Positions 14,679-64,000 of a DNA stretch of 64,000 nt are shown here, piece after piece (position 1 is the stretch's first letter; the number at the start of each line of letters is the position of its first letter). The notes under the pieces are model-generated. The model was not told where the DNA came from and made no database searches. It saw nothing but the letters and a program-made list of their open reading frames with translations. This DNA is from Balaenoptera acutorostrata (taxonomy: Eukaryota; Chordata; Mammalia; Artiodactyla; Balaenopteridae): NCBI RefSeq assembly GCF_949987535.1, contig NC_080082.1, forward strand, positions 43,091,874 to 43,155,873, given 5' to 3'. Position numbers and translations under genes: made by a program.

Positions 14679-14690
14679 GACCCCAAGGAT
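14671..14690 (+). other. Junction between Array 1 and Array 2
   Basis: CCTCGG (Array 1) is followed by AGGA and then CCCCAAGGAT (Array 2). Relative to a complete monomer, the stretch from TGTGCTTTCC to GCCCTA (about 85 bp) is missing. The join is therefore an out-of-register fusion within homologous sequence rather than a clean monomer boundary. Confidence 0.85.
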
Positions 14691-15350
14691 TCAGGAATGT
14701 TCATCCCGATTGTTTGAGAACAGCTTTTCTGGCTCTTTCATGGATGAAACCAACTGGGAAAAGAGCCGTCCTAAGCTGGAGACCATGGTGTCTTTCCCTA
14801 GTCTACACAGAAACAGCACTCTGAGTGAAACGAGCTGCTGGCATTTGGTAGCAAATCTCCTATTCTGAAGAGAAACATTTCGTTGTAAGCGGGTTGTATC
14901 AGCATTGCCACGTTTTCTCAACTGGGTATAAAGGAGGGCAGTCAGTAGTCCTCACCCTTCAAACCTACTCCAATTTCATAGAGGAAACACCAAGCCTCGG
15001 TATGGTCTCCTGTGGCAAGGAAACTTTGCTTTCATTCCTTAGGTGGCACATTGGCTCAGAACTGCCCTACCCCAAGGATTCAGGGATGTGCAGCCCGATT
15101 ACTTGAGATCAGCCCTTCTGGCTCTTTCATGGCTGAAACCAACTGGGAAAAGAGCCGTTCTAAGCTGGGGACCATGGTGTCTTACCCTAGTCTACACAGA
15201 AACAGCACTCTGAGGGAGAGGAGCTGCTGGTGTTTGGTAGCACAATCTCCTATTCTGAAGAGAAACATTTCGTTGTAAGCGGGTTGCATCAGCCTTGTCA
15301 CATGTTCTCAACTGGCTTTAAAGAAGGGCAGTCAGTTGGCAGACTTACTT
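14679..15350 (+). repeat. Array 2 entry segment, same subfamily as 43.5-44.1 kb
   Basis: The first monomer is truncated at its left end. It has GTTCATCCCGATTG, CCGTCCTAAGCTGGAGACC and the 1-bp-short GGTAGCAAATCTCC, followed by a long junction that reads CATAGAGGAAACACCAAGCCTCGGTATGG. The same linked pair recurs at about 43,513-43,985 and at nine other places in the array, so the array edge is built from a mainstream subfamily and not from diverged outer monomers. Confidence 0.85.
14878..14894 (+). other. First intact CENP-B box after the array junction
   Basis: TTTCGTTGTAAGCGGGT lies about 200 bp inside Array 2. It has all nine essential positions, and it differs from the YTTCGTTGGAARCGGGA consensus only at positions 9 (T for G) and 17 (T for A), both tolerant sites in the core definition. 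Confidence 0.93.
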
Positions 15351-16189
15351 GAGGCCCTGCTTCCCAGGCTGGAATCTTTGCTTTCATTCCTTAGTTAGCA
15401 CATTGGCTCAGGACGGCCTTACCACAAGGATTCAGGTTTGTGCAGCCCGAATACTTGAGATCAGCCCTTCTGGCTCTTTCATGGATGAAACCAACTGGGA
15501 AAAGAGCCGTTCTAAGCTGGGGACCATGGTGTCTTTCCCTAGTCTACACAGAAAGAGCGCTCTGAGTGAAACGAGATGCTGACGTTTGGTAGCAAAATCT
15601 CCTATTCTGAAGAGAAACATTTCGTTGTAAGCGGGTTGCATCAGCCTTGCCTCATTTTCACAAGTGGCTATAAAGGAGGGCAGTCAGTAGGCCTCACCCT
15701 TCAAGCCCACTCCAATTTCCTAGAGAAAACACCAGGCCTCGGTGTGCTTTCCTGTGGCAAGTAAACTTTGCTTTGATTCCTTAGGGGGCACTTTGGCTCA
15801 GAAATGCCCTACCCCAAGGATTCAGGAATGTTCAGCCCGATTGTTTGAGAACAGCTTTTCTGGCTCTTTCATGGATGAAACCAACTGGGAAAAGAGCCGT
15901 TCTAAGCTGGGGACCATGGTGTCTCTCCCTAGTCTACACAGAAACAGCACTCTGAGAGAGAGGATCTGCTGGCGTTTGGTAGCAAAATCTCCTATTCTGA
16001 AGAGAAACATTTCTTTGCAAGCGGCTTGCATTAGCCTTGCCACATTTTCTCAACTGGCTTTAAAGAAGGGCAGTCAGTTGGTAGACTTCCTTGAGTCCCT
16101 GCTTCCCAGGCTGGAAACTTTGCTTTCATTCCTTAGTTAGCACATAGGCTCAGGACGCCCTTACCCCAAGGATTCAGGGATGTGCAGGC

Positions 16190-17665
16190 TGATTACTTGA
16201 GATCAGCCCTTCTGGCTCTTTCATGGCTGAAACCAACTGGGAAAAGAGCCGTTCTAAGCTGGGGACCATGGTGTCTTACCCTAGTCTACACAGAAACAGC
16301 ACTCTGAGGGAGAGGAGCTGCTGGTGTTTGGTAGCACAATCTCCTATTCTGAAGAGAAACATTTCGTTGTAAGCGGGTTGCATCAGCCTTGTCACATTTT
16401 CTCAACTGGCTTTAAAGAAGGGCTGTCAGGTGGCAGGCAGTCTTACTTGAGGCCCTGCTTCCCAGGCTGGAAATTTTACTTTCATTCCTTAGTTAGCACA
16501 TTGGCTCAGGACGGCCTTACCCCAAGGATTCAGAGATGTGCAGCCCGATTACTTGAGATCAGCTCTTCCGGCTCTTTCATGGATGAAACCACCTGGGAAA
16601 AGAGCCGTTCTTAGCTGGGGACCATGGTGTCTTTCCCTAGTCTACACAGAAACAGCACTCTGAGTGAAACGAGATGCTGCTGTTTGGTAGCAAAATCTCC
16701 TATTCTGAAGAGAAACATTTACTTGTAAGCGGGTTGCCTCAGCCTTGCCTCATTTTCAGAAGTGGCTATAAAGGAGGGCAGTCAGTAGGCCCCACCCTTC
16801 AAGCCCACTCCAATTTCCTAGAGAAAACACCAGGCCACGGTGTGCTTTCCTGTGGCAAGTAAACTTTGCTTTCATTCCTTACGGGGCACTTTGGCTCAGA
16901 AGTGCCCTACCCCAAGGATTCAGGAATGTTCAGCCCGATTTTTGGAGAACAGCTTTTCTGGCTCTTTCATGGAGGAAACCAACTGGGAAAAGAGCCGTTC
17001 TAAGCTGGGCACCATGGTGTCTTACCCTAGTCTAACAGAAACAGCACTCTGAGGGAGACGAGCTGCTGGCGTTTGGTAGGAAAATCTCCTATTCTGAAGA
17101 GAAACATTTCGTTGTAAGCGGGTTGCATCAGCCTTGTCACATTTTCTGAACTGGCTTTAAAGAAGGGCAGTCAGTTGGCAGACTTACTTGAGGCGCTGCT
17201 TCCCAGGCTGGAATCTTTGCTTTCATTCCTTAGTTAGCACATTGGCTCAGGACGGCCTTACCCCAAGGATTCAGGGTTGTGCAGCCCGATTACTTAAGAT
17301 CAGCCCTTCTGGCTCTTTCATGGATGAAACCAACTGGGAAAAGAGCCGTTCTAAGCTGGGGACCATGGTGTCTTTCCCTAGTCTACACAGATACAGCACA
17401 CTGAGGGAGAGGACCTGCTGGCGTTTGGTAGCAAAATCTCCTATCCTGAAGAGAAACATTTCGTTGTAAGCAGGTTGCATCAGCCTTGCCTCATTTTCAC
17501 AAGTAGCTATAAAGGAGGGCAGTCAGTAGGCCTCACCCTTCAAGCCCACTCCAATTTCCTAGATAAAACACCAGGCCTCGGTGTGCTTTCCTGTGGCAAG
17601 TAAACTTTGCTTTGATTCCTTAGGGGGCACTTTGGCTCAGAAATGCCCTACCCCAAGGATTCAGG
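16190..17665 (+). repeat. Segmental copy a (2,970-bp offset)
   Basis: Four monomers nearly identical to 19,160-20,635. Differences noticed include GGCAGTCTTAC (about 16,436) against GGCAGACTTAC, and AGCTGGGGACC (about 17,355) against AGCTGGAGACC. At the right edge the copies part at GATTCAGG|AATG versus GATTCAGG|GATG. Confidence 0.88.
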
Positions 17666-19159
17666 AATGTTCAGCCCGATTGTTTGAGAACAGCTTTTCT
17701 GGCTCTTTCATGGATGAAACCAACTGGGAAAAGAGCCGTTCTAAGCTGGGGACCATGGTGTCTTTCCCTAGTCTACACAGAAAGAGCACTCTGAGGGAGA
17801 CGAGCTGCTGGCGTTTGGTAGCACAATCTCCTATTCTGAAGAGAAACATTTCGTTGTAAGCGGGTTGCATCAGCCTTGCCACATGTTCTCAACTGGCTTT
17901 AAAGAAGGGCAGTCAGTTGGCAGACTTCCTTGAGGCCCTGCTTCCCAGGCTGGAAACTTTGCTTTCATTCCATAGTTAGCACATTGGCTCAGGACGGCCT
18001 TACCACAAGGATTCAGGGATGTGCAGCCCGATTACTTGAGATCAGCCCTTCCGGCTCTTTCATGGATGAAACCACCTGGGAAAAGAGCCGTTCTTAGCTG
18101 GGGACCATGGTGTCTTTCCCTAGTCTACACAGAAACAGCACTCTGAGTGAAACGAGATGCTGCTGTTTGGTAGCAAAATCTCCTATTCTGAAGAGAAACA
18201 TTTACTTGTAAGCGGGTTGCCTCAGCCTTGCCTCATTTTCACAAGTGGCTATAAAGGAGGGCAGTCAGTAGGCCTCACCCTTCAAGCCCACTCCAATTTC
18301 CTAGAGAAAACACCAGGCCACGGTGTGCTTTCCTGTGGCAAGTAAACTTTGCTTTCATTCCTTACGGGGCACTTTGGCTCAGAAGTGCCCTACCCCAAGG
18401 TTTCAGGAATGTTCAGCCCGATTTTTGGAGAACAGCTTTTCTGGCTCTTTCATGGATGAAACCAACTGGGAAAAGAGCCGTTCTAAGCTGGGCACCATGG
18501 TGTCTTACCCTAGTCTAACAGAAACAGCACTCTGAGTGAAACGAGATGCTGGCGTTTGGTAGCAAAATCGCGTCTTCTGAAGAGAAACATTTCGTTGTAA
18601 GCGGGTTGCATCAGCCTTGCCTCATTTTCACAAGTGGCTATAAAGCAGGGCAGTCAGTAGGCCTCACCCTTCAAGCCCACTCCAATTTCCTAGAGAAAAC
18701 ACCAGGCCACGGTGTGCTTTCCTGTGGCAAGTAAACTTTGCTTTCATTCCTTAGAGGGCACTTTGGCTCAGAACTGCCCTATCCCAAGGATTCTGGAATG
18801 TTCAGCCCGATTGTTTGAGAACAGCTTTTCTGGCTCTTTCATGGATGAAACCAACTGGGAAAAGAGCCGTTCTAAGCTGGGGACAATGGTGTCTTTCCCT
18901 AGTCTACACAGAAACAGCACTCTGAGGGAGAGGAGCTGCTGGCGTTTGGTAGCAAAATCTCCTATTCTGAAGAGAAACATTTCTTTGCAAGCGGGTTGCA
19001 TCAGCCTTGCCACATTTTCTCAACTGGCTTTCAAGAGGGGCAGTCAGTTGGCAGACTTCCTTGAGGCCCTGCTTCCCAGGCTGGAAACTTTGCTTTCATT
19101 CCTTAGTTAGCACATTGGCTCAGGACGGCCTTACCCCAAGGATTCAGGGATGTGCAGCC

Positions 19160-20635
19160 CGATTACTTGAGATCAGCCCTTCTGGCTCTTTCATGGCTGA
19201 AACCAACTGGGAAAAGAGCCGTTCTAAGCTGGGGACCATGGTGTCTTACCCTAGTCTACACAGAAACAGCACTCTGAGGGAGAGGAGCTGCTGGTGTTTG
19301 GTAGCACAATCTCCTATTCTGAAGAGAAACATTTCGTTGTAAGCGGGTTGCATCAGCCTTGTCACATTTTCTCAACTGGCTTTAAAGAAGGGCTGTCAGG
19401 TGGCAGGCAGACTTACTTGAGGCCCTGCTTCCCAGGCTGGAAATTTTACTTTCATTCCTTAGTTAGCACATTGGCTCAGGACGGCCTTACCCCAAGGATT
19501 CAGAGATGTGCAGCCCGATTACTTGAGATCAGCTCTTCCGGCTCTTTCATGGATGAAACCACCTGGGAAAAGAGCCGTTCTTAGCTGGGGACCATGGTGT
19601 CTTTCCCTAGTCTACACAGAAACAGCACTCTGAGTGAAACGAGATGCTGCTGTTTGGTAGCAAAATCTCCTATTCTGAAGAGAAACATTTACTTGTAAGC
19701 GGGTTGCCTCAGCCTTGCCTCATTTTCAGAAGTGGCTATAAAGGAGGGCAGTCAGTAGGCCCCACCCTTCAAGCCCACTCCAATTTCCTAGAGAAAACAC
19801 CAGGCCACGGTGTGCTTTCCTGTGGCAAGTAAACTTTGCTTTCATTCCTTACGGGGCACTTTGGCTCAGAAGTGCCCTACCCCAAGGATTCAGGAATGTT
19901 CAGCCCGATTTTTGGAGAACAGCTTTTCTGGCTCTTTCATGGAGGAAACCAACTGGGAAAAGAGCCGTTCTAAGCTGGGCACCATGGTGTCTTACCCTAG
20001 TCTAACAGAAACAGCACTCTGAGGGAGACGAGCTGCTGGCGTTTGGTAGGAAAATCTCCTATTCTGAAGAGAAACATTTCGTTGTAAGCGGGTTGCATCA
20101 GCCTTGTCACATTTTCTGAACTGGCTTTAAAGAAGGGCAGTCAGTTGGCAGACTTACTTGAGGCGCTGCTTCCCAGGCTGGAATCTTTGCTTTCATTCCT
20201 TAGTTAGCACATTGGCTCAGGACGGCCTTACCCCAAGGATTCAGGGTTGTGCAGCCCGATTACTTAAGATCAGCCCTTCTGGCTCTTTCATGGATGAAAC
20301 CAACTGGGAAAAGAGCCGTTCTAAGCTGGAGACCATGGTGTCTTTCCCTAGTCTACACAGATACAGCACACTGAGGGAGAGGACCTGCTGGCGTTTGGTA
20401 GCAAAATCTCCTATCCTGAAGAGAAACATTTCGTTGTAAGCAGGTTGCATCAGCCTTGCCTCATTTTCACAAGTAGCTATAAAGGAGGGCAGTCAGTAGG
20501 CCTCACCCTTCAAGCCCACTCCAATTTCCTAGATAAAACACCAGGCCTCGGTGTGCTTTCCTGTGGCAAGTAAACTTTGCTTTGATTCCTTAGGGGGCAC
20601 TTTGGCTCAGAAATGCCCTACCCCAAGGATTCAGG
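19160..20635 (+). repeat. Segmental copy b (2,970-bp offset)
   Basis: This is the partner of 16,190-17,665. It keeps the same unusual variants: GGCTGTCAGGTGGCAGGCAG, a short-unit spacing of 356 instead of 352 bp, and GAGGCGCTGC at the next junction. Confidence 0.88.
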
Positions 20636-22302
20636 GATGTGCAGCCCGATTACTTGAGATCAGCCCTTCTGGCTCTTTCATGGCTGAAACCAACTGGGAA
20701 AAGAGCCGTTCTAAGCTGGGGACCATGGTGTCTTACCCTAGTCTACACAGAAACAGCACTCTGAGGGAGAGGAGCTGCTGGTGTTTGGTAGCACAATCTC
20801 CTATTCTGAAGAGAAACATTTCGTTGTAAGCGGGTTGCATCAGCCTTGTCACATTTTCTCAACTGGCTTTAAAGAAGGGCAGTCAGGTGGCAGACTTACT
20901 TGAGGCCCTGCTTCCCAGGCTGGAAATTTTACTTTCATTCCTTAGTTAGCACATTGGCTCAGGACGGCCTTACCCCAAGGATTCAGGGATGTGCAGCCCG
21001 AATACTTGAGATCAGCCCTTCCGGCTCTTTCATGGATGAAACCACCTGGGAAAAGAGCCGTTCTTAGCTGGGGACCATGGTGTCTTTCCCTAGTCTACAC
21101 AAAAAACAGCACTCTGAGTGAAACGAGATGCTGGCGTTTGGTAGCAAAATCTCCTATTCTGAAGAGAAACATTTCCTTGTAAGCGGGTTGTCTCAGCCTT
21201 GCCTCATTTTCACAAGTGGCTATAAAGGAGGGCAGTCAGTAGGCCTCACCCTTCAAGCCGACTCCAATTTCCTAGAGAAAACACCAGGCCACGGTGTGCT
21301 TTCCTGTGGCAAGTAAACTTTGCTTTCATTCCTTACGGGGCACTTTGGCTCAGAAGTGTCCTACCCCAAGGATTCAGGAATGTTCAGCCCGATTTTTGGA
21401 GACCAGCTTTTCTGGCTCTTTCATGGATGAAACCAACTGGGAAAGGAGCCGTTCTAAGCTGGGCACCATGGTGTCTTACCCTAGTCTAACAGAAACAGCA
21501 CTCTGAGGGAGACGAGCTGCTGGCGTTTGGTAGCAAAATCTCCTATTCTGAAGAGAAACATTTCGTTGTAAGCGGGTTGCATCAGCCTTGTCACATTTTC
21601 TGAACTGGCTTTAAAGAAGGGCAGTCAGTTGGCAGACTTACTTGAGGCGCTGCTTCCCAGGCTGGAATCTTTGCTTTCATTCCTTAGTTAGCACATTGGC
21701 TCAGGATGGCCTTACCCCAAGGATTCAGGGTTGTGCAGCCCGATTACTTAAGATCAGCCCTTCTGGCACTTTCATGGATGAAACCGACTGGGAAAAGAGC
21801 CGTTCTAAGCTGGGGACCATGGTGTCTTTCCCTAGTCTACACAGAAACAGCACACTGAGGGAGAGGACCTGCTGGCGTTTGGTAGCAAAATCTCCTATCC
21901 TGAAGAGAAACATTTCGTTGTAAGCAGGTTGCATCAGCCTTGCCTCATTTTCACAAGTGGCTATAAAGGAGGGCAGTCAGTAGGCCTCACCCTTCAAGCC
22001 CACTCCAATTTCCTAGAGAAAACACCAGGCCTCGGTGTGCTTTCCTGTGGCAAGTAAACTTTGCTTTCATTCCTTAGGGGGCACTTTGGCTCAGAATTTC
22101 CCTACCCCAAGGATTCAGGAATGTTCAGCACGATTGTTTGAGAACAGCTTTTCTGGCTCTTTCATGGATGAAACCAACTGGGAAAAGAGCCGTTCTAAGC
22201 TGGGGACCATGGTGTCTTTCCCTAGTCTACACAGAAAGAGCACTCTGAGGGAGACGAGCTGCTGGCGTTTGGTAGCACAATCTCCTATTCTGAAGAGAAA
22301 CA

Positions 22303-22319
22303 GTTCGTTGTAAGCGGGT
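22303..22319 (+). other. Variant CENP-B box GTTCGTTGTAAGCGGGT
   Basis: The first, non-essential base is G instead of T; all nine essential positions are kept. The same variant occurs at 29679, as expected from the 7,376-bp segmental copy. Confidence 0.88.
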
Positions 22320-23394
22320 TGCATCAGCCTTGCCACATGTTCTCAACTGGCTTTAAAGAAGGGCAGTCAGTTGGCAGACTTCCTTGAGGCCCTGCTTCCC
22401 AGGCTGGAAACTTTGCTTTCATTCCATAGTTAGCACATTGGCTCAGGACGGCCTTGCCACAAGGATTCAGGGATGTGCAGCCCGATTACTTGAGATCAGC
22501 CCTTCTGGCTCTTTCATGGATGAAACCAACTGGGAAAAGTGCCGTTCTAAGCAGGGGACCATGGTGTCTTTCCCTAGTCTACACAGAAACAGCGCTCTGA
22601 GGGAAACGAGCTTCTGGCATTTGGTAGCAAAATCTGCTATGTGAAGAGAAACATTTCGCTGTAAGTGGGTTGCATCAGCCTTGCTACATTTTCTCAACTG
22701 GCTTTAAAGTAGGGTAGTCATTTGGCAAACTTACTTGAGGCCCTGCTTCCCAGGCTGGAAATTTTGCTTTCATTCCTTAGGTAGCACATTGGCTCAGGAC
22801 GGCCTTACCCCAAGGATTCACGGATGTGCAGCCCGATTACATGAGATCAGCCCTTCTGGCTCTTTCATGGCTGAAACCAACTGGGAAAAGAGCCGTTCTA
22901 AGCTGGGGACCATGGTGTCTTTCCCTAGTCTACACAGAAACAGCACTCTGAGTGAGACGAGCTGCTGGCGTTTGGTAGCAAAATCTCCTATTCTGAAGAG
23001 AAACATTTCATTGTAAGCGGGGTGCATCAGCCTTGCCTCATTTTCACAAGTGGCTATAAAGGAGGGCAGTCAGTAGGCCTCACCTTTCAAGCCCACTCCA
23101 ATTTCCTAGAGAAAACACTAGGTCACGGTGTGCTTTCCTGTGGCAAGTAAACTTTGCTTTTATTCCTTAGGGGGCACTTTGGCTCAGAACTGCCCTACCC
23201 CAAGGATTCAGGAATGTTCATCCCGATTGTTTGAGAACAGCTTTTCTGGCTCTTTCATGGATGAAACCAACTGGGAAAAGAGCCGTCCGAAGCTGGAGAC
23301 CATGGTGTGTTTCCCTAGTCTACACAGAAACAGCACTCTGAGTGAAACGAGCTGCTGGCATTTGGTAGCAAATCTCCTATTCTGAAGAGAAACA

Positions 23395-23411
23395 TTTCGT
23401 TCTAAGCGGGT
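23395..23411 (+). other. Variant CENP-B box TTTCGTTCTAAGCGGGT
   Basis: G-to-C at position 8, inside the variable spacer, leaves the core intact. Also found at 27102 and 30771. All three belong to the monomer class that precedes the CATAGAGGAAACACC junction. Confidence 0.88.
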
Positions 23412-26646: not shown

Positions 26647-26712
26647 ACAGCACTCTGAGTGAGACGAGCTGCTGGCGTTTGGTAGCAAAATCTCCTATTC
26701 TGAAGAGAAACA

Positions 26713-34560: not shown

Positions 34561-34979
34561 CTTAGTTAGCACATTGGCTCAGGACGGCCTTACCCCAAGG
34601 ATTCAGGGATGTGCAGCCCGATTACTTGAGATCAGCCCTTCTGGCTCTTTCATGGATGAAACCAACTGGGAAAAGAGCCGTTCTAAGCTGGGGACCATGA
34701 TGTCTTTCCCTAGTCTACACAGAAACAGCACACTGAGGGAGAGGAGCTGCTGGCGTTTGGTAGCATAATCTCCTATCCTGAAGAGAAACATTTCGTTGTA
34801 AGCAGGTTGCATCAGCCTTGCCTCATTTTCACAAGTGGCTATAAAGGAGGGCAGTCAGTAGGCCTCACCCTTCAAGCCCACTCCAATTTCCTAGAGAAAA
34901 CACCAGGCCTCGGTGTGCTTTCCTGTGGCAAGTAAACTTTGCTTTCATTCCTTAGAGGGCACTTTGGCTCAGAAATGCC

Positions 34980-50339: not shown

Positions 50340-53300
50340 TTTCGTTGTAAGCGGGTTGCATCAGCCTTGCCACATGTTCTCAACTGGGTTTAAAGAAGGG
50401 CAGTCAGTTGGCAGACTTCCTTGAGGCCCTGCTTCCCAGGCTGGAAACTTTGCTTTCATTCCATAGTTAGCACATTGGCTCAGGACGGCCTTACCACTAG
50501 GATTCAGGGATGTGCAGCCCAATTACTTGAGATCAGCACTTCTGGCTCTTTCATGGATGAAACCAACTGGGAAAAGAGCCGTTCTAAGCTGGGGACCATG
50601 GAGTCAACCTAGTCTACCCAGAAACAGCACTCTGAGTGAAACGAGATGCTGGCATTTGGTAGCAAAATCGCCTCTTCTGAAGAGAAACATTTCGTTGTAA
50701 GCGGGTTGCCTCAGCCTTGCCTCATTTTCACAAGTGGCTATAAAGGAGGGCAGTCAGTAGGCCTCACCCTTCAAGCCTACTCCAATTTCCTAGAGAAAAC
50801 ACCAGGCCTCGGTGTGCTTTCCTGTGGCAAGTAAACTTTGCTTTCATTCCTTAGGGGGCACTTTGGCTCAGAACTGGCCTATCCCAAGGATTCAGGAATG
50901 TTCAGCCCGATTGTTTGAGAACAGCTTTTCTGGCTCTTTCATGGATGAAACCAACTGGGAAAAGAGCCGTTCTAAGCTGGGGACCATGGTGTCTTTCCCT
51001 AGTCTACACAGAAACAGCACTCTGAGGGAGAGGAGCTGCTGGCGTTTGGTAGCACAATCTCCTATTCTGAAGAGAAACATTTCGTTGTAAGTGGGATGCA
51101 TCAGCCTTGCCACATTTTCTCAACTGGCTTTAAAGAAGGGCAGTCAGTTGGCAGACTTCCTTGAGGCCCTGCTTCCCAGGCTGGAAACTTTGCTTTCATT
51201 CCTTCGTTAGCACATTGACTCAGGACGGCCTTACCCCAAGGATTCAGGGATGTGCAGCCCGATTACTTGAGATCAGCCCTTCTGGCTCTTTCATGGCTGA
51301 AACCAACTGGGAAAAGAGCCGTTCTAAGCTGGGGACCATGGTGTCTTTCCCTAGTCTACACAGAAACAGCACTCTGAGGGAGAGGAGCTGCTGGCGTTTG
51401 GTAGCAAAATCTCCTATTCTGAAGAGAAACATTTCTTTGCAAGCGGGTTGCATCAGCCTTGCCACATTTTCTCAACTGGCTTTAAAGAAGGGCAGTCAGG
51501 TGGCAGACTTACTTGAGGCCCTGCTTCCCACCTGGAAATTTTACTTTCATTCCTTAGTTAGCACATTGGCTCAGGACGGCCTTACCCCAAGGATTCAGGG
51601 ATGTGCAGCCCGATTACTTGAGATCAGCCCTTCCGGCTCTTTCATGGGTGAAACCACCTGGGAAAAGAGCCGTTCTTAGCTGGGGACCATGGTGTCTTTC
51701 CCTAGTCTACACAGAAACAGCACTCTGAGTGAAACGAGATGCTGGCGTTTGGTAGCAAAATCTCCTATTCTGAAGAGAAACATTTCCTTGTAAGCGGGTT
51801 GCCTCAGCCTTGCCTCATTTTCACAAGTGGTTATAAAGGAGGGCAGTCAGTAGGCCTCACCCTTCAAGCCCACTCCAATTTCCTTGAGAAAACACCAGGC
51901 CTCGGTGTGCTTTCCTGTGGCAAGTAAACTTTGCTTTCATTCCTTAGAGGGCACTTTGGCTCAGAACTGCCCTATCCAAAGGATTCTGGAATGTTCAGCC
52001 CGATTGTTTGAGAAGAGCTTTTCTGGCTCTTTCATGGATGAAACCAACTGGGAAAAGAGCCGTTCTAAGCTGGGGACCATGGTTTCTTTCCCTAGTCTAC
52101 ACAGAAACAGCACTCTGAGTGAAACGAGCTGCTGGCATTTGGTAGCAAATCTCCTATTCTGAAGAGAAACATTTCGTTGTAAGCTGGTTGTATCAGCCTT
52201 GCCACGTTTTCTCAACTGGGTATAAAGGAGGGCAGTCAGTAGTCCTCACCCTTCAAACCTACTCCAATTTCATAGAGGAAACACCAAGCCTCGGGATGGT
52301 CTCCTGTGGCAAGGAAACTTTGCTTTCATTCCTTAGGTGGCACATTGGCTCAGAACTGCCTTACCCCAAGGATTCAGGGATGTGCAGCCCGATTACTTGA
52401 GATCAGCCCTTCTGGCTCTTTCATGGCTGAAACCAACTGGGAAAAGAGCCGTTCTTAGCTGGGGACCATGGTGTCTTTCCCTAGTCTACACAGAAACAGC
52501 ACACTGAGGGAGAGGAGCTGCTGGTGTTTGGTAGCACAATCTCCTATTCTGAAGAGAAACATTTCGTTGTAAGCGGGTTGCATCAGCCTTGTCACATTTT
52601 CTCAACTGGCTTTAAAGAAGGGCAGTCAGGTGGCAGACTTACTTGAGGCCCTGCTTCCCAGGCTGGAAACTTGGCTTTCATTCCTTAGGTGGCACATTGG
52701 CTCAGGACTGCCTTACCCCAAGGATTCAGTTATGTGCAGCCCGATTACTTGAGATCAGCCCTTCAGGCTCTTTCATGGCTGAAACCAACTGGGAAAAGTG
52801 CCGTTCTAAGCAGGGGACCATGGTGTCTTTCCCTAGTCTACACAGAAACAGCGCTCTGAGGGAAACGAGCTGCTGGCATTTGGTAGCAAAATCTGCTATG
52901 TGAAGAGAAACCTTTCGCTGTAAGTGGGTTGCATCAGCCTTGCTACATTTTCTCAACTGGCTTTAAAGTAGGGTAGTCATTTGGCAAACTTATTTGAGGC
53001 CCTGCTTCCCAGGCTGGAAAGTTTGCTTTCATTCCTTAGGTAGCACATTGGCTCAGGACGGCCTTACCCCAAGGATTCAGGGATGTGCAGCCCGATTACT
53101 TGAGATCAGCCCTTCTGGCTCTTTCATGGATGAAACCAACTGGGAAAAGAGCCGTTCTAAGCTGGGGACCATGGTGTCTTTCCCTAGTCTACACAGAAAC
53201 AGCACTCTGAGTGAAACGAGCTGCTGGCATTTCGTAGCAAATCTCCTATTCTGAAGAGAAACATTTCGTTGTAAGCGGGTTGTATCAGCCTTGCCACGTT

Positions 53301-54784
53301 TTCTCAACTGGGTATAAAGGAGGGCAGTCAGTAGTCCTCACCCTTCAAACCTACTCCAATTTCATAGAGGAAACACCAAGCCTCGGTATGGTCTCCTGTG
53401 GCAAGGAAACTTTGCTTTCATTCCTTAGGTGGCACATTGGCTCAGAACGGCCCTACCCCAAGGATTCAGGGATGTGCAGCCCGATTACTTGAGATCAGCC
53501 CTTCTGGCTCTTTCATGGCTGAAACCAACTGGGAAAAGAGCCGTTCTAAGCTGGGGACCATGGTGTCTTACCCTAGTCTACACAGAAACAGCACTCTGAG
53601 GGAGAGGAGCTGCTGGTGTTTGGTAGCAAAATCTCCTATTCTGAAGAGAAACGTTTCGTTGTAAGCGGGTTGCATCAGCCTTGCCTCATTTTCACAAGTG
53701 GCTATAAAGGAGGGCAGTCAGTAGGCCTCACCCTTCAAGCCCACTCCAATTTCCTTGAGAAAACACCAGGCCTCGGTGTGCTTTCCTGTGGCAAGTAAAC
53801 TTTGCTTTCATTCCTTAGAGGGCACTTTGGCTCAGAACTGCCCTATCCCAAGGATTCTGGAATGTTCAGCCCGATTGTTTGAGAACAGCTTTTCTGGCTC
53901 TTTCATGGATGAAACCAACTGGGAAAAGAGCCGTTCTAAGCTGGGGACCATGGTGTCTTTCCCTAGTCTACACAGAAACAGCACTCTGAGGGAGAGGAGC
54001 TGCTGGCGTTTGGTAGCAAAATCTCCTATTCTGAAGAGAAACATTTCTTTGCAAGCGGGTTGCATCAGCCTTGCCACATTTCTCAACTGGCTTTAAAGAA
54101 GGGCAGTCAGGTGGCAGACTTACTTGAGGCCCTGCTTCCCAGGCTGGAAATTTTACTTTCATTCCTTAGTTAGCACATTGGCTCAGGACGGCCTTACCCC
54201 AAGGATTCAGGGATGTGCAGCCCGATTACTTGAGATCAGCCCTTCCGGCTCTTTCATGGGTGAAACCACCTGGGAAAAGAGCCGTTCTTAGCTGGGGACC
54301 ATGGTGTCTTTCCCTAGTTTACACAGAAACAGCACTCTGAGTGAAACGAGATGCTGGCGTTTGGTAGCAAAATCTCCTATTCTGAAGAGAAACATTTCCT
54401 TGTAAGCGGGTTGCCTCAGCCTTGCCTCATTTTCACAAGTGGCTATAAAGGAGGGCAGTCAGTAGGCCTCACCCTTGAAGCCCACTCCAATTTCCTAGAG
54501 AAAACACCAGGCCTCGATGTGCTTTCCTGTGGCAAGTAAACTTTGCTTTCATTCCTTAGGGCGCACTTTGGCTCAGAACTGCCCTACCCCAAGGATTCAG
54601 GAATGTTCAGCCCGATTGTTTGAGAACAGCTTTTCTGGCTCTTTCATGGATGAAACCAACTGGGAAAAGAGCCGTTGTAAGCTGGGGACCATGGTGTCTT
54701 TCCCTACTCTACACAGAAACAGCACTCTGAGGGAGACGAGCTGCTGGCGTTTGGTAGCACAATCTCCTATTCTGAAGAGAAACA
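50340..54784 (+). repeat. 4,446-bp higher-order repeat (12 monomers), copy 1
   Basis: Twelve monomers repeated almost exactly at 54,785-59,230 and partly at 59,231-60,838. Counting from the box at 50690, the order is + - - - - + - + + - - +. Copy 1 is 1 bp shorter because of CTTCCCACCTGG (about 51,529) where copy 2 has CTTCCCAGGCTGG. That slip fuses two frames into the longest open frame of Array 2 (51161-51679). Confidence 0.92.
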
Positions 54785-57700
54785 TTTCGTTGTAAGCGGG
54801 TTGCATCAGCCTTGCCACATGTTCTCAACTGGGTTTAAAGAAGGGCAGTCAGTTGGCAGACTTCCTTGAGGCCCTGCTTCCCAGGCTGGAAACTTTGCTT
54901 TCATTCCATAGTTAGCACATTGGCTCAGGACGGCCTTACCACTAGGATTCAGGGATGTGCAGCCCAATTACTTGAGATCAGCACTTCTGGCTCTTTCATG
55001 GATGAAACCAACTGGGAAAAGAGCCGTTCTAAGCTGGGGACCATGGAGTCAACCTAGTCTACCCAGAAACAGCACTCTGAGTGAAACGAGATGCTGGCAT
55101 TTGGTAGCAAAATCGCCTCTTCTGAAGAGAAACATTTCGTTGTAAGCGGGTTGCCTCAGCCTTGCCTCATTTTCACAAGTGGCTATAAAGGAGGGCAGTC
55201 AGTAGGCCTCACCCTTCAAGCCTACTCCAATTTCCTAGAGAAAACACCAGGCCTCGGTGTGCTTTCCTGTGGCAAGTAAACTTTGCTTTCATTCCTTAGG
55301 GGGCACTTTGGCTCAGAACTGGCCTATCCCAAGGATTCAGGAATGTTCAGCCCGATTGTTTGAGAACAGCTTTTCTGGCTCTTTCATGGATGAAACCAAC
55401 TGGGAAAAGAGCCGTTCTAAGCTGGGGACCATGGTGTCTTTCCCTAGTCTACACAGAAACAGCACTCTGAGGGAGAGGAGCTGCTGGCGTTTGGTAGCAC
55501 AATCTCCTATTCTGAAGAGAAACATTTCGTTGTAAGTGGGATGCATCAGCCTTGCCACATTTTCTCAACTGGCTTTAAAGAAGGGCAGTCAGTTGGCAGA
55601 CTTCCTTGAGGCCCTGCTTCCCAGGCTGGAAACTTTGCTTTCATTCCTTCGTTAGCACATTGACTCAGGACGGCCTTACCCCAAGGATTCAGGGATGTGC
55701 AGCCCGATTACTTGAGATCAGCCCTTCTGGCTCTTTCATGGCTGAAACCAACTGGGAAAAGAGCCGTTCTAAGCTGGGGACCATGGTGTCTTTCCCTAGT
55801 CTACACAGAAACAGCACTCTGAGGGAGAGGAGCTGCTGGCGTTTGGTAGCAAAATCTCCTATTCTGAAGAGAAACATTTCTTTGCAAGCGGGTTGCATCA
55901 GCCTTGCCACATTTTCTCAACTGGCTTTAAAGAAGGGCAGTCAGGTGGCAGACTTACTTGAGGCCCTGCTTCCCAGGCTGGAAATTTTACTTTCATTCCT
56001 TAGTTAGCACATTGGCTCAGGACGGCCTTACCCCAAGGATTCAGGGATGTGCAGCCCGATTACTTGAGATCAGCCCTTCCGGCTCTTTCATGGGTGAAAC
56101 CACCTGGGAAAAGAGCCGTTCTTAGCTGGGGACCATGGTGTCTTTCCCTAGTCTACACAGAAACAGCACTCTGAGTGAAACGAGATGCTGGCGTTTGGTA
56201 GCAAAATCTCCTATTCTGAAGAGAAACATTTCCTTGTAAGCGGGTTGCCTCAGCCTTGCCTCATTTTCACAAGTGGTTATAAAGGAGGGCAGTCAGTAGG
56301 CCTCACCCTTCAAGCCCACTCCAATTTCCTTGAGAAAACACCAGGCCTCGGTGTGCTTTCCTGTGGCAAGTAAACTTTGCTTTCATTCCTTAGAGGGCAC
56401 TTTGGCTCAGAACTGCCCTATCCAAAGGATTCTGGAATGTTCAGCCCGATTGTTTGAGAAGAGCTTTTCTGGCTCTTTCATGGATGAAACCAACTGGGAA
56501 AAGAGCCGTTCTAAGCTGGGGACCATGGTTTCTTTCCCTAGTCTACACAGAAACAGCACTCTGAGTGAAACGAGCTGCTGGCATTTGGTAGCAAATCTCC
56601 TATTCTGAAGAGAAACATTTCGTTGTAAGCTGGTTGTATCAGCCTTGCCACGTTTTCTCAACTGGGTATAAAGGAGGGCAGTCAGTAGTCCTCACCCTTC
56701 AAACCTACTCCAATTTCATAGAGGAAACACCAAGCCTCGGGATGGTCTCCTGTGGCAAGGAAACTTTGCTTTCATTCCTTAGGTGGCACATTGGCTCAGA
56801 ACTGCCTTACCCCAAGGATTCAGGGATGTGCAGCCCGATTACTTGAGATCAGCCCTTCTGGCTCTTTCATGGCTGAAACCAACTGGGAAAAGAGCCGTTC
56901 TTAGCTGGGGACCATGGTGTCTTTCCCTAGTCTACACAGAAACAGCACACTGAGGGAGAGGAGCTGCTGGTGTTTGGTAGCACAATCTCCTATTCTGAAG
57001 AGAAACATTTCGTTGTAAGCGGGTTGCATCAGCCTTGTCACATTTTCTCAACTGGCTTTAAAGAAGGGCAGTCAGGTGGCAGACTTACTTGAGGCCCTGC
57101 TTCCCAGGCTGGAAACTTGGCTTTCATTCCTTAGGTGGCACATTGGCTCAGGACTGCCTTACCCCAAGGATTCAGTTATGTGCAGCCCGATTACTTGAGA
57201 TCAGCCCTTCAGGCTCTTTCATGGCTGAAACCAACTGGGAAAAGTGCCGTTCTAAGCAGGGGACCATGGTGTCTTTCCCTAGTCTACACAGAAACAGCGC
57301 TCTGAGGGAAACGAGCTGCTGGCATTTGGTAGCAAAATCTGCTATGTGAAGAGAAACCTTTCGCTGTAAGTGGGTTGCATCAGCCTTGCTACATTTTCTC
57401 AACTGGCTTTAAAGTAGGGTAGTCATTTGGCAAACTTATTTGAGGCCCTGCTTCCCAGGCTGGAAAGTTTGCTTTCATTCCTTAGGTAGCACATTGGCTC
57501 AGGACGGCCTTACCCCAAGGATTCAGGGATGTGCAGCCCGATTACTTGAGATCAGCCCTTCTGGCTCTTTCATGGATGAAACCAACTGGGAAAAGAGCCG
57601 TTCTAAGCTGGGGACCATGGTGTCTTTCCCTAGTCTACACAGAAACAGCACTCTGAGTGAAACGAGCTGCTGGCATTTCGTAGCAAATCTCCTATTCTGA

Positions 57701-59230
57701 AGAGAAACATTTCGTTGTAAGCGGGTTGTATCAGCCTTGCCACGTTTTCTCAACTGGGTATAAAGGAGGGCAGTCAGTAGTCCTCACCCTTCAAACCTAC
57801 TCCAATTTCATAGAGGAAACACCAAGCCTCGGTATGGTCTCCTGTGGCAAGGAAACTTTGCTTTCATTCCTTAGGTGGCACATTGGCTCAGAACGGCCCT
57901 ACCCCAAGGATTCAGGGATGTGCAGCCCGATTACTTGAGATCAGCCCTTCTGGCTCTTTCATGGCTGAAACCAACTGGGAAAAGAGCCGTTCTAAGCTGG
58001 GGACCATGGTGTCTTACCCTAGTCTACACAGAAACAGCACTCTGAGGGAGAGGAGCTGCTGGTGTTTGGTAGCAAAATCTCCTATTCTGAAGAGAAACGT
58101 TTCGTTGTAAGCGGGTTGCATCAGCCTTGCCTCATTTTCACAAGTGGCTATAAAGGAGGGCAGTCAGTAGGCCTCACCCTTCAAGCCCACTCCAATTTCC
58201 TTGAGAAAACACCAGGCCTCGGTGTGCTTTCCTGTGGCAAGTAAACTTTGCTTTCATTCCTTAGAGGGCACTTTGGCTCAGAACTGCCCTATCCCAAGGA
58301 TTCTGGAATGTTCAGCCCGATTGTTTGAGAACAGCTTTTCTGGCTCTTTCATGGATGAAACCAACTGGGAAAAGAGCCGTTCTAAGCTGGGGACCATGGT
58401 GTCTTTCCCTAGTCTACACAGAAACAGCACTCTGAGGGAGAGGAGCTGCTGGCGTTTGGTAGCAAAATCTCCTATTCTGAAGAGAAACATTTCTTTGCAA
58501 GCGGGTTGCATCAGCCTTGCCACATTTCTCAACTGGCTTTAAAGAAGGGCAGTCAGGTGGCAGACTTACTTGAGGCCCTGCTTCCCAGGCTGGAAATTTT
58601 ACTTTCATTCCTTAGTTAGCACATTGGCTCAGGACGGCCTTACCCCAAGGATTCAGGGATGTGCAGCCCGATTACTTGAGATCAGCCCTTCCGGCTCTTT
58701 CATGGGTGAAACCACCTGGGAAAAGAGCCGTTCTTAGCTGGGGACCATGGTGTCTTTCCCTAGTTTACACAGAAACAGCACTCTGAGTGAAACGAGATGC
58801 TGGCGTTTGGTAGCAAAATCTCCTATTCTGAAGAGAAACATTTCCTTGTAAGCGGGTTGCCTCAGCCTTGCCTCATTTTCACAAGTGGCTATAAAGGAGG
58901 GCAGTCAGTAGGCCTCACCCTTGAAGCCCACTCCAATTTCCTAGAGAAAACACCAGGCCTCGATGTGCTTTCCTGTGGCAAGTAAACTTTGCTTTCATTC
59001 CTTAGGGGGCACTTTGGCTCAGAACTGCCCTACCCCAAGGATTCAGGAATGTTCAGCCCGATTGTTTGAGAACAGCTTTTCTGGCTCTTTCATGGATGAA
59101 ACCAACTGGGAAAAGAGCCGTTGTAAGCTGGGGACCATGGTGTCTTTCCCTACTCTACACAGAAACAGCACTCTGAGGGAGACGAGCTGCTGGCGTTTGG
59201 TAGCACAATCTCCTATTCTGAAGAGAAACA
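54785..59230 (+). repeat. 4,446-bp higher-order repeat, copy 2
   Basis: Intact boxes at 54785, 55135, 57008, 57710 and 58100 fall at +4,445 or +4,446 from those of copy 1. The only other difference I noticed is GGGCGCAC near 54,560 against GGGGGCAC near 59,006. Confidence 0.92.
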
Positions 59231-60838
59231 TTTCGTTGTAAGCGGGTTGCATCAGCCTTGCCACATGTTCTCAACTGGGTTTAAAGAAGGGCAGTCAGTT
59301 GGCAGACTTCCTTGAGGCCCTGCTTCCCAGGCTGGAAACTTTGCTTTCATTCCATAGTTAGCACATTGGCTCAGGACGGCCTTACCACTAGGATTCAGGG
59401 ATGTGCAGCCCAATTACTTGAGATCAGCACTTCTGGCTCTTTCATGGATGAAACCAACTGGGAAAAGAGCCGTTCTAAGCTGGGGACCATGGAGTCAACC
59501 TAGTCTACCCAGAAACAGCACTCTGAGTGAAACGAGATGCTGGCATTTGGTAGCAAAATCGCCTCTTCTGAAGAGAAACATTTCGTTGTAAGCGGGTTGC
59601 ATCAGCCTTGCCTCATTTTCACAAGTGGCTATAAAAGAGGGCAGTCAGTAGGCCTCACCCTTCAAGCCTACTCCAATTTCCTAGAGAAAACACCAGGCCT
59701 CGGTGTGCTTTCCTGTGGCAAGTAAACTATGCTTTCATTCCTTAGGGGGCACTTTGGCTCAGAACTGGCCTATCCCAAGGATTCAGGAATGTTCAGCCCG
59801 ATTGTTTGAGAACAGCTTTTCTGGCTCTTTCATGGATGAAACCAACTGGGAAAAGAGCCGTTCTAAGCTGGGGACCATGGTGTCTTTCCCTAGTCTACAC
59901 AGAAACAGCACTCTGAGGGAGAGGAGCTGCTGGCGTTTGGTAGCACAATCTCCTATTCTGAAGAGAAACATTTCGTTGTAAGTGGGATGCATCAGCCTTG
60001 CCACATATTCTCAACTGGCTTTAAAGAAGGGCAGTCAGTTGGCAGACTTCCTTGAGGCCCTGCTTCCCAGGCTGGAAACTTTGCTTTCATTCCTTCGTTA
60101 GCACATTGGCTCAGGACGGCCTTACCCCAAGGATTCAGGGATGTGCAGCCCGATTACTTGAGATCAGCCCTTCTGGCTCTTTCATGGCTGAAACCAACTG
60201 GGAAAAGAGCCGTTCTAAGCTGGGGACCATGGTGTCTTTCCCTAGTCTACACAGAAACAGCACTCTGAGGGAGAGGAGCTGCTGGCGTTTGGTAGCAAAA
60301 TCTCCTATTCTGAAGAGAAACATTTCTTTGCAAGCTGGTTGCATCAGCCTTGCCACATTTTCTCAACTGGCTTTAAAGAAGGGCAGTCAGGTGGCAGACT
60401 TACTTGAGGCCCTGCTTCCCAGGCTGGAAATTTTACTTTCATTCCTTAGTTAGCACATTGGCTCAGGACGGCCTTACCCCAAGGATTCAGGGATGTGCAG
60501 CCCGATTACTTGAGATCAGCCCTTCCGGCTCTTTCATGGGTGAAACCACCTGGGAAAAGAGCCGTTCTTAGCTGTGGACCATGGTGTCTTTCCCTAGTCT
60601 ACACAGAAACAGCACTCTGAGTGAAACGAGATGCTGGCGTTTGGTAGCAAAATCTCCTATTCTGAAGAGAAACATTTCCTTGTAAGCGGGTTGCCTCAGC
60701 CTTGCCTCATTTTCACAAGTGGTTATAAAGGAGGGCAGTCAGTAGGCCTCAACCTTCAAGCCCACTCCAATTTCCTTGAGAAAACACCAGGCCTCGGTGT
60801 GCTTTCCTGTGGCAAGTAAACTTTGCTTTCATTCCTTA
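59231..60838 (+). repeat. 4,446-bp higher-order repeat, partial copy 3
   Basis: About 4.5 monomers continue the same order (boxes at 59231 and 59581 intact, then three broken). The match ends near 60,838, where TTAGGGGGCAC replaces the TTAGAGGGCAC expected from copy 2. A few private changes are present (CTATAAAAGAGG, AAACTATGCTTTC, AGCTGTGGACC), so this copy is slightly more diverged. Confidence 0.87.
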
Positions 60839-62005
60839 GGGGGCACTTTGGCTCAGAACTGCCCTACCCCAAGGATTCAGGAATGTTCAGCCCGATTGTT
60901 TGAGAACAGCTTTTCTGGCTCTTTCATGTATGAAACCAACTGGGAAAAGAGCCGTTCTAAGCTGGGGACCATGGTGTCTTACCCTAGTCTACACCGAAAC
61001 AGCACTCTGAGGGAGAGGAGCTGCTGGTGTTTGGTAGCACAATCTCCTATTCTGAAGGAAACATTTCATTGTAAGCGGGTTGCATCAGCCTTGTCACATT
61101 TTTTAACTGGCTTTAAAGAAGGGCAGTCAGGTGGCAGACTTACTTGAGGCCCTGCTTCCCAGGCTGGAAATTTTACTTTCATTCCTTAGTTAGCACATTG
61201 GCTCAGGACGGCCTTACTCCAAGGATTCAGGGATGTGCAGCCCGATTACTTGAGATCAGCCCTTCTGGCTCTTTCATGGATGAAACCAACTGGGAAAAGA
61301 GCCGTTCTAAGCTGGGGACCATGGTGTCTTTCCCTAGTCTACACAAAAACAGCACTCTGAGGGAGAGGAGCTGCTGGCGATTGGTAGCAAAATCTCCTAT
61401 TCTGAAGAGAAACATTTCTTTGCAAGCGGGTTGCATCAGCCTTGCCACATTTTCTCAACTGGCTTTAAAGGAGGGCAGTCAATTGGCAAACTTCCTTGAG
61501 GCCCTGCTTCCCAAGCTGTAAAATTTGCTTTCATTCCTTAGTTGGCACATTGGCTCAGGACTGCCTTACCCCAAAGATTCAGGGATGTGCAGCCCTATTA
61601 GTTGAGATCAGCCCTTCTGGCTCTTTCATGGATGAAACCAACTGGGAAAAGAGCCGTTCTTAGCTGGGGACCATGGTGTCTTTCCCTAGTCTACACAGAA
61701 ACAGCACTCTGAGTGAAACGAGATGCTGGCGTTTGGTAGCAAAATCTCCTATTCTGAAGAGAAACGTTTCGTTGTAAGCGGGTTGCATCAGCCTTGCCTC
61801 ATTTTCACAAGTGGCTATAAAGGAGGGCAGTCAGTAGGCCTCACCCTTCAAGCCCACTCCAATTTCCTAGAGAAAACACCAGGCCTCGGTGTGCTTTCCT
61901 GTGGCAAGTAACCTTTGCTTTCATTCCTTAGAGGGCACTTTGGCTCAGAACTGCCGTATCCCAAGGATTCTGGAATGTTCAGCCCGATTGTTTGAGAACA
62001 GCTTT
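60839..62005 (+). repeat. Array 2 monomers without a clear higher-order partner
   Basis: About three monomers, mostly box-less (TTCA at about 61,067; TTCT at about 61,412) apart from the intact box at 61767. I could not place this stretch in any of the long-period copies of the window. Confidence 0.75.
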
Positions 62006-64000
62006 TCTGGCTCTTTCATGGATGAAACCAACTGGGAAAAGAGCCGTTCTAAGCTGGGGACCATGGTGTCTTTCCCTAGTCTACACAGAAACAGCACTCT
62101 GAGGGAGAGGAGCTGCTGGCGTTTGGTAGCAAAATCTCCTATTCTGAAGAGAAACATTTCTTTGCAAACGGGTTGCATCAGCCTTGCCACATTTCCTCAA
62201 CTGGCTTTAAAGAAGGGCAGTCACTTGGCAGACTTCCTTGAGTCCCTGCTTCCCAGGCTGGAAACTTTGCTTTCATTCCTTAGTTAGCACATTTGGTCAG
62301 GACGGCCTTATCCCAAGGATTCAGGGATGTGCAGCCCGATTACTTGAGATCAGCCCTTCTGGCTCTTTCATGGCTGAAGCCAACTGGGAAAAGAGCCGTT
62401 CTAAGCTGGGTACCATGGTGTCTTACCCTAGTCTACACAGAAACAGCGCCCTGAGGGAAACGAGCTGCTGGCATTTGGTAGCACAATCTCCTATTCTGAA
62501 GAGAAACATTCCGTTGTAAGCGGGTTACATCAGCCTTGTCACATTTTCTCAACTGGCTTTAAAGAAGGGCAGTCAGGTGGCTGACTTACTCGAGGCCCTG
62601 CTTCCCAGGCTGGAAATTTTACTTTCATTCCTTAGTTAGCACATTGGCTCAGGACGGCCTTACCCCAAGGATTCAGGGATGTGCAGCCCGATTACTTGAG
62701 ATCAGCCCTTCCGGCTCTTTCATGGATGAAACCACCTGGGAAAAGAGCCGTTCTTAGCTGGGGACCATGGTGTCTTTCCCTAGTCTACACAGAAACAGCG
62801 CTCTGAGGGAAACGAGATGCTGGCGTTTGGTAGCAAAATCTCCTATTCTGAAGAGAAACATTTCCTTGTAAGCGGGTTGCCTCAGCCTTGCCTCATTTTC
62901 ACAAGTGGCTATAAAGGAGGGCAGTCAGTAGGCCTCACCCTTCAAGCCCACTCCAATTTCCTAGAGAAAACACCAGGCCACGGTGTGCTTTCCTGTGGCA
63001 AGTAAACTTTGCTTTCATTCCTTACGGGGCACTTTGGCTCAGAACTGCCAACCCCAAGGATTCAGGAATGTTCATCCCGATTGTTTCAGAACAGCTTTTC
63101 TAGCTCTTTCATGGATGAAACCAACTGGGAAAAGAGCCGTTCTAAGCTGGGCACCATGGTGTCTTACCCTGGTCTAACAGAAACAGCACTCTGAGGGAGA
63201 CGAGCTGCTGGCGTTTGGTAGCAAAATCTCCTATTCTGAAGAGAAACATTTCGTTGTAAGCGGGTTGCATCAGCCTTGTCACATTTTCTGAACTGGCTTT
63301 AAAGAAGGGCAGTCAGTTGGCAGACTTCCTTGAGTCCCTGCGTCCCAGGCTGGAAACTTTGCTTTCATTCCTTAGTTAGCACATTGGCTCAGGACGGCCT
63401 TACCCCAAGGATTCAGGGATGTGCAGCCCGATTATTTGAGATCAGCCCTTCTGGCTCTTTCATGGATGAAACCAACTGGGAAAAGAGCCGTTCTAAGCTG
63501 GGGACCATGGTGTCTTTCCCTAGTCTACACAGAAACAGCACTCTGAGGGAGAGGACCTGCTGGCGTTTGGTAGCAAAATCTCCTATTCTGAAGAGAAACA
63601 TTTCTTTGCAAACGGGTTGCATCAGCCTTGCCACATTTCCTCAACTGGCTTTAAAGAAGGGCAGTCACTTGGCAGACTTCCTTGAGTCCCTGCTTCCCAG
63701 GCTGGAAACTTTGCTTTCATTCCTTAGTTAGCACATTTGGTCAGGACGGCCTTATCCCAAGGATTCAGGGATGTGCAGCCCGATTACTTGAGATCAGCCC
63801 TTCTGGCTCTTTCATGGCTGAAGCCAACTGGGAAAAGAGCCGTTCTAAGCTGGGTACCATGGTGTCTTACCCTAGTCTACACAGAAACAGCGCCCTGAGG
63901 GAAACGAGCTGCTGGCATTTGGTAGCACAATCTCCTATTCTGAAGAGAAACATTCCGTTGTAAGCGGGTTACATCAGCCTTGTCACATTTTCTCAACTGG
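62006..64000 (+). repeat. Tandem copy at the window end, offset 1,444 bp
   Basis: About 62,006-62,556 is repeated at 63,450-64,000, and the match runs off the window. Shared private variants are CACATTTCCTCAACTGG, CAGTCACTTGGCAG, CACATTTGGTCAGG, GGCTGAAGCCAACTGG and a box with TTCG changed to TCCG (CATTCCGTTG). One mismatch is GGAGCTGC (about 62,110) against GGACCTGC. The only intact box in this segment is at 63249. Confidence 0.85.

Follow-up and report, generated by a model that had tools for sequence, protein, structure and literature searches.

The window analysed here, a stretch of 64 kb at 43.09–43.16 Mb of C25 (a 67-Mb chromosome contig in a genome of 2.77 Gb), contains two adjoining tandem arrays. 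Array 1 (positions 1–14676, plus strand) is built of units of ~1,775 bp (1,774–1,779 bp on C25), seven of which are complete from core to core, and carries eight segments that correspond to the box site described below. Array 2 (14680–64000, plus strand) comprises 134 monomers, the first and last of which are incomplete, and extends past the end of the window. A BLAST search with one monomer as the query detected 142 homologous segments in the window: eight in array 1, one per unit of ~1,775 bp, and 134 in array 2. The junction of the two arrays lies approximately at 14677–14688 and consists of a deletion within the homologous segment, across which the orientation is unchanged. An array-2 monomer is composed of a 315-bp core and either a short linker of 36–41 bp (n = 72) or a linker of 75 bp (n = 61), and the array proceeds in steps of ~352 and 390 bp with a 742-bp dimer; the monomer at 16107–16458 (plus strand, 352 bp) serves as the reference. 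These periods bear out the initial annotation, which had regarded the monomer as unlike the 171-bp alpha or 120-bp minor satellite. Neighbouring monomers are ~90% alike, and some higher-order copies reach 95–100%; a 12-monomer higher-order repeat at 51177–60067 (plus strand) is present in two tandem copies (51177–55621 and 55622–60067), which are 99.84% identical and each retain 5 of 12 boxes intact.

Many array-2 monomers carry an intact CENP-B box. The intact core nTTCGnnnnAnnCGGGn, with all nine essential bases, is present in 58 of the 134 array-2 monomers, the number given in the initial annotation, always on the plus strand; the corresponding 17-mers span 14878–63265 (first core at 14879–14893, last at 63250–63264), and the box of the reference monomer lies at 16362–16378. 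The site occupies a single block of alignment columns across the monomers, so that the earlier description of one fixed place on one strand stands; the exact letters TTTCGTTGTAAGCGGGT, however, occur in only 52 of the 134 monomers, and the remaining six intact cores differ at non-essential positions (TTTCGTTCTAAGCGGGT, n = 3; GTTCGTTGTAAGCGGGT, n = 2; TTTCGTTGTAAACGGGT, n = 1). The nine essential bases are those of the recognised CENP-B box core, according to the available text of PMC4904201, and 15 of the 17 bases agree with YTTCGTTGGAARCGGGA, as had been claimed; the full canonical human/mouse box has no copy in the genome. At the 76 broken sites, one essential base is altered in 64 and two in 12, and 83 of the 88 lesions fall in the two CpGs. 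Box-plus and box-minus monomers mostly alternate at 15620–22320 (plus strand), in keeping with the 742-bp dimer, and over the whole array adjacent box-box pairs number 19 against 24.6 expected (P = 0.033, a value that ignores copied blocks). In array 1 none of the eight box sites is intact; the first unit bears a relic at 744–760 (plus strand, TTTCGTTGTAACTGGGT), which has counterparts in the other seven units, and all eight have T at position 13.

The motif scan with a shuffled control that had been proposed with the initial annotation gave 58 matches to nTTCGnnnnAnnCGGGn in the window, compared with a mean of 0.14 and a maximum of 1 in 100 shuffled windows. Since the copies in an array are not independent, the chance figure at the level of the consensus is the fairer one: among dinucleotide shuffles of the 427-bp monomer consensus, a 9/9 core on either strand appeared in 8 of 20,000, and a fit of at least 15/17 was reached by 2 of 2,000. 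Single-strand folding around the box revealed nothing notable (z of 1.25 and −1.30).

Sequence comparison shows that array 2 is made up wholly of sequence corresponding to a segment of ~430 bp of the adjoining 1,775-bp unit. In the first unit of array 1, every part of array 2 has its match within 423–853 (plus strand), a segment that includes the long linker (423–495), the core (497–811), and the short linker (818–851). Related units of ~1,760 bp, organised as a 3,521-bp dimer, were found with intact boxes on C19, where sampling indicates a megabase cluster; they bear the box at the same place as array 2, in the form TTTCGGTGTAAGCGGGT, and are 83.5–84.8% like the core of the array-2 consensus. 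The existence of this relative with intact boxes implies that the box is older than array 2. Neither the extraction of array 2 from the neighbouring satellite nor the greater age of the box formed part of the first reading of this DNA. An older satellite of ~1.76–1.78 kb probably gave rise to array 2 through tandem amplification of a box-bearing segment of ~430 bp. In the whole genome the exact 17-mer has 7,036 copies; among the matches listed, apparently in contig order, the first is on C19 and none is on C1–C18, and therefore the box may not mark every chromosome of the assembly. Two other box patterns have few matches, which lie on C26 (34.97–35.62 Mb), C27 (1.8–2.1 Mb), C19, and C25.

A species lacking CENP-B, which had been named as an objection to a centromeric role, is not what the genome presents: a single CENPB locus was found on C21, and it is intact, with 601 codons from the ATG. 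The DNA-binding domain of the host protein is identical to that of PDB 1hlv at 128 of 129 aligned residues, only the last being different, and the dimerisation domain matches 1ufi. Judged from these domains, host CENP-B should bind a site that keeps all nine essential bases.

Array 2 is plausibly a new satellite, predicted from its sequence to be CENP-B-binding and centromeric. The reading preferred here, to which a probability of about 0.62 is assigned, is that it is a higher-order repeat satellite in a centromeric cluster, in which a box-bearing segment has been amplified and the boxes are bound by host CENP-B. Array 2 would probably lie within the centromeric satellite cluster of C25, and host CENP-B, occupying the boxes as predicted, would dimerise and help to retain CENP-A and CENP-C on the array. 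A megabase array with many intact boxes is a good candidate for part of a working centromere. Several points stand against this reading: conservation within array 2 is no higher at the box than around it, 76 of the 134 sites are broken, C1–C18 are missing from the matches listed for the 17-mer, and the genome has no copy of the full human/mouse form. The centromeric interpretation of the initial annotation is thus partly supported.

The distribution of array 2 along C25, which was examined by sampling 46 stretches, bears on the main alternative. Array-2 blocks extend over 41.99–42.49 Mb and from 43.107 to ~44.31 Mb, all on the plus strand in the samples. Between them the 1,775-bp satellite occupies 0.6 Mb, a block that was box-free in 9 of 9 samples and would more likely be heterochromatin. 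Next to the C25 cluster lies a 40-bp satellite that extends for at least 1.2 Mb, and this satellite also neighbours the cluster on C19. Such a neighbourhood would suit a satellite that flanks the true centromere as pericentromeric heterochromatin, which CENP-B would bind and help to recruit, with the kinetochore formed at another site, such as different repeats on C25; PMC7438015, in its accessible part, describes CENP-B as able to tip the balance to CENP-A chromatin or to heterochromatin marked by H3K9me3. Boxes are sparse in the 36 kb sampled at the array's right end (26 boxes) and in 12 kb immediately beyond the right edge of the window (9 boxes), which agrees with this alternative; the denser boxes of the left block and the interior (43 in 28 kb and 38 in 24 kb sampled) speak against it, on a grouping defined after the data were seen. 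Furthermore, a repeat with a 2,967-bp offset is 99.6–100% identical among samples at 42.29–42.39 Mb, which resembles a centromere core more than a flank; this is a weak argument, because the thin parts show such identity as well (99.7% between two right-end samples). On balance, a purely pericentromeric role seems rather unlikely.

The other alternative is that a nine-base core arose by chance in the ancestral unit, was copied by amplification, and has been decaying, unused, at its CpGs. Excess conservation of the box within array 2 was sought in three ways and none was found: the 17-bp window ranks 172nd of 299 along the monomer, the nine-base mask lies at the 19th percentile, where it stays after near-copies are collapsed to 40 groups, and a test confined to the non-CpG essential sites, five in number, returned P = 0.16. 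In the comparison with C19, the box is identical at 17/17 bases to C19a and at 16/17 to C19b, levels reached by 14 and 95 of 299 windows, and complete identity across the nine-base mask occurs at 61 and 76 of the 299 placements, respectively. The failure to find excess conservation, the 76 boxes broken mostly at CpGs, the loss of the box at all eight sites of array 1, and the expectation that box cores often arise by chance in satellites (PMC4904201, as far as its available text goes) all suit such a neutral by-product, which is nevertheless improbable in view of the predicted binding of a 9/9 site by an intact host CENP-B and, more weakly in the light of the C19 figures above, of the intact box with both CpGs in C19 units that are 15–17% diverged from the array-2 consensus.

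It may be speculated, as a possible but doubtful reading, that centromere drive concentrated the box. The ancient satellite of ~1.76 kb would have had no more than a single box in each unit, as that on C19 still does, and would have been followed on C25 by a satellite made of the box-bearing 430-bp segment only, in which boxes became denser and come at about one per 630–850 bp in the denser parts and one per ~1,330–1,390 bp in the thinner parts. The remnant of the older satellite inside the C25 cluster would have lost its boxes. Ancestral and derived satellites would then be neighbours on C25, with the box-minus old form between box-plus blocks.

Like array 2, the higher-order repeats of human alpha satellite, as described in the accessible part of PMC8997354, have a fixed CENP-B box in some monomers, partly in alternation, and diverged monomers inside near-identical higher-order copies, and some boxes are mutated in the longer ones. 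Array 2 is set apart by its monomer length of 352/390 bp instead of 171 bp, by the likeness of its neighbouring monomers (~90%, compared with 50–70% in human alpha), and by box letters that differ at positions 9 and 17. The alpha satellite of New World monkeys with functional CENP-B boxes resembles array 2 in its unit of 340–350 bp, its 9/9 core, and boxes whose place varies between species; its occupancy by CENP-A and CENP-B has been established by staining and ChIP-qPCR (PMC4904201, available text), whereas array 2 is known from sequence alone. TMAsat of manatees is centromeric, its 687-bp unit divides into a 332-bp and a 355-bp half that are related to each other, and its CENP-B-box-like motifs keep only 5–6 of the nine essential bases (PMC8421680, in the part available), in contrast to nine of nine in array 2. 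The centromere monomers predicted by software in the finless porpoise T2T assembly (99–201 bp; PMC11403816, available part) do not fit array 2 in size.

A literature search by repeat lengths yielded no paper recognised as describing the array-2 satellite, and no mention of a cetacean CENP-B box was found in the literature searched, which consisted mostly of papers free of subscription. The common cetacean satellite has a unit of ~1,760 bp. Compared by description, it and the array-1 and C19 units are all of kilobase scale; reviews and reference lists, in the portions available, note that it resembles the L1 3′ end and mention neither CENP-B boxes nor a 352/390-bp derivative. The host of the DNA analysed here is probably a cetacean. 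A 27-base SINE word, with up to two errors allowed, matches in 3 of 11 flanking loci, as a raw count. If the host is indeed a cetacean, array 2 adds an instance in which all nine essential bases are kept and the host protein has a DNA-binding domain almost the same as that of PDB 1hlv. In addition, C25 provides a natural comparison, in which box-bearing blocks of related sequence and like orientation flank the 0.6-Mb box-free block on both sides, and would allow CENP-A, CENP-C, and heterochromatin to be compared directly.

Searches of the window for other functions gave little. Rfam had no match at the gathering threshold. Ten ORFs, seven of them from the array-1 unit, were compared with Pfam; nine had no match, no L1 domain was found, and the two weak matches of the remaining ORF were both below the cut-offs, so that a coding function was rejected. 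Window positions 8000–15400 had no match among phages and plasmids, three DNA patterns had none in viral_contigs and one had none in genome_contigs, and one translated ORF had no confirmed match in either of the latter two collections. The satellite family is present in public metagenome assemblies, the protein searches having returned 9, 8, and 5 partly overlapping clusters from ENA metagenomes.

Array 1 (positions 1 to about 14676 of the window) is built of 1,774-1,779-bp units, of which seven are complete from core to core and share 97.1-99.9% identity; the rest is array 2, with 134 monomers, those at either end being incomplete. A scan of the window for the CENP-B box core yielded 58 matches, exclusively on the + strand, versus a mean of 0.14 in 100 window shuffles. 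The fixed place that the initial annotation had assigned to the box is borne out, as the 58 intact cores occur one per monomer at the same position. All nine essential bases are kept in these monomers, as had been claimed, but the exact 17-mer given for them (the commonest letters among the intact boxes of array 2) occurs in only 52, the other six being changed solely at non-essential positions. Because array-2 copies are not independent, the 427-bp consensus was also randomised; the nine-base core was present in 8 of 20,000 such shuffles, and at least 15 of the 17 box bases in 2 of 2,000. Genome-wide, the 17-mer has 7,036 copies (5,686 + 1,350), and neither the reversed 17-mer, used as a control, nor the full human/mouse form has any.

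In the array-2 monomer, a 315-bp core precedes either a short linker (36-41 bp, mostly 37; 72 cases) or a 75-bp linker (61 cases). The core, the long linker and the short linker have counterparts at 497-811, 423-495 and 818-851, respectively, of the array-1 unit (~88% identity each); therefore, one contiguous 430-bp stretch of the longer unit accounts for all of array 2. The junction of the two arrays is a deletion inside a homologous segment, with the same orientation on both sides. Array 1 contains eight segments homologous to array-2 monomers, and none of these eight has an intact box, all carrying T at position 13.

A related satellite lies on contig C19 (94 Mb) of the host genome, where the box copies among the matches listed, from 32.32 Mb onward, are mostly spaced by 3,521 bp. 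It consists of ~1,760-bp units spanning 32.3-33.3 Mb (sampled stretches L051, L059 and L070-L074), which are 84.5% identical to array 1 outside the core, 81% to a single array-2 monomer core and 83.5-84.8% to the array-2 consensus. In L051 (7 kb), which was sited on listed box matches, all four units carry a box with the nine essential bases, TTTCGTTGTAAGCGGGT alternating with TTTCGGTGTAAGCGGGT, and in this stretch both units of the 3,521-bp dimer are box-bearing. Eight further samples (32.70-33.50 Mb) included five with one box each; of the others, L074 contains the satellite without a box, L058 a satellite fragment only, and L060 no satellite. The array switches strand between 32.70 and 32.90 Mb. 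Matches to two rarer box patterns (6 and 13 places) are confined to C19, C25 (the contig of the window), C26 (34.97-35.62 Mb) and C27 (1.8-2.1 Mb). If the matches listed follow contig order, as they seem to, the exact 17-mer is absent from C1-C18. In the core alignment, array 2 is closest to array 1 of C25 (89.2%), and both are farther from C19 (81.6-84.8%). Together with the C19 boxes, this alignment is most simply explained if the box predated array 2 and was lost by array 1, array 2 having arisen from the long unit on C25, although derivation in the reverse direction may apply instead.

The window was placed at C25:43,091,874-43,155,873 (contig, 67.3 Mb; genome, 2.77 Gb), and its surroundings were mapped from 46 sampled stretches of C25. 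A 40-bp satellite, present by 40.74 Mb at the latest, extends to ~41.99 Mb (L027, L028, L047, L048 and part of L064), followed by a left array-2-type block (~41.99-42.49 Mb), an array-1-type block (~42.49-43.107 Mb) and a right array-2-type block (43.107 to ~44.31 Mb); all three satellites are absent from the six C25 samples at 44.326 Mb onward. None of the nine samples lying fully within the array-1-type block contains a box. The short-linker junction has 602 matches on the + strand, the first at C25:41,989,335, and one on the opposite strand. Two of these junctions, isolated inside the array-1 block (42,914,033 and 42,914,761), may represent a small insertion of array-2 sequence. Sampled box counts, in four density groups defined post hoc with the numbers already known, were 43 in 28 kb in the left block, 9 in the 12 kb sampled next to the window on its right, 38 in 24 kb at 43.256-43.706 Mb and 26 in 36 kb in the right part; instances of high identity between samples are found in box-dense and box-thin parts alike. 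At 42.286-42.390 Mb, a repeat with a 2,967-bp offset (L044, L043 and L042) is 99.6-100% identical between samples up to 100 kb apart. On C25 as on C19, the box-bearing cluster has a 40-bp-unit satellite of at least ~1 Mb to its left (on C19 at ~31.0-32.3 Mb; L052-L056).

The CENP-B-binding satellite proposed in the initial annotation presupposes a host with CENP-B, and PF09026 gives one locus, at C21:59,061,616, with a stop-free frame of 601 codons from the ATG. An alignment with PDB 1hlv, the DNA-binding domain of CENP-B, covers 129 residues, 128 of them identical and only the last different; the dimerisation domain matches 1ufi. Since the host domain is nearly identical to 1hlv, a site with all nine bases of the recognised core, as outlined in PMC4904201, should be bindable by the host protein. 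CENP-B is described in PMC8997354 and PMC7438015 as a box-bound dimer that helps to maintain CENP-A/CENP-C but may promote heterochromatin as well. Most likely, the box-bearing blocks of C25 would provide a CENP-B platform and be candidates for the kinetochore site; the block lacking boxes could serve as their natural control.

Adjacent array-2 monomers are ~90% identical, and at spacings of 8, 10 or 12 monomers identity rises locally to 95-99.9%; two 12-mer copies differ by six substitutions and one gap over 4,446 columns. Among 40 monomer groups (3% distance), 16 are entirely box-plus, 23 entirely box-minus and one mixed; box state goes with monomer lineage. The two states mostly alternate in the initial part of array 2, forming a 742-bp dimer, and neighbouring box-plus pairs number 19 versus 24.6 expected (P = 0.033, with copied blocks counted as independent). 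The lack of special conservation of the box within array 2 counts against function: the box window ranks 172nd of 299 by major-allele frequency, and the nine-base mask, intact in 43%, stands at the 19th percentile among all placements, and similarly once near-copies are collapsed. Parsimony changes average 0.6 at the five non-CpG essential bases versus 1.6 at non-CpG sites generally (P = 0.16). The 76 broken sites carry 88 lesions, 83 of them at the two CpGs; the two arrays have CpG observed/expected ratios of 0.29-0.37, a level like that of methylated vertebrate DNA.

The host is probably a cetacean, judging by SINE words and satellite unit length. SINE words, presumably typical of cetaceans, hippos and ruminants, occur in the flanks, the longest at 3 of 11 loci with up to two errors, as counted without a shuffled control. 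The common cetacean satellite has a unit of ~1.76 kb, a length shared by the units found here. Its existence and its link to L1 are described in PMC9659126, PMC5615363 and PMC4107277. The one point against a cetacean host is that a finless porpoise paper (PMC11403816) predicts other centromere monomers. Chance ORFs of both arrays (window 1056-1493 on the - strand and array-2 ORFs; protein records P0001-P0017) match unnamed ENA metagenome protein clusters, so public metagenome assemblies seem to contain DNA of the same or a kindred host, predicted as protein.
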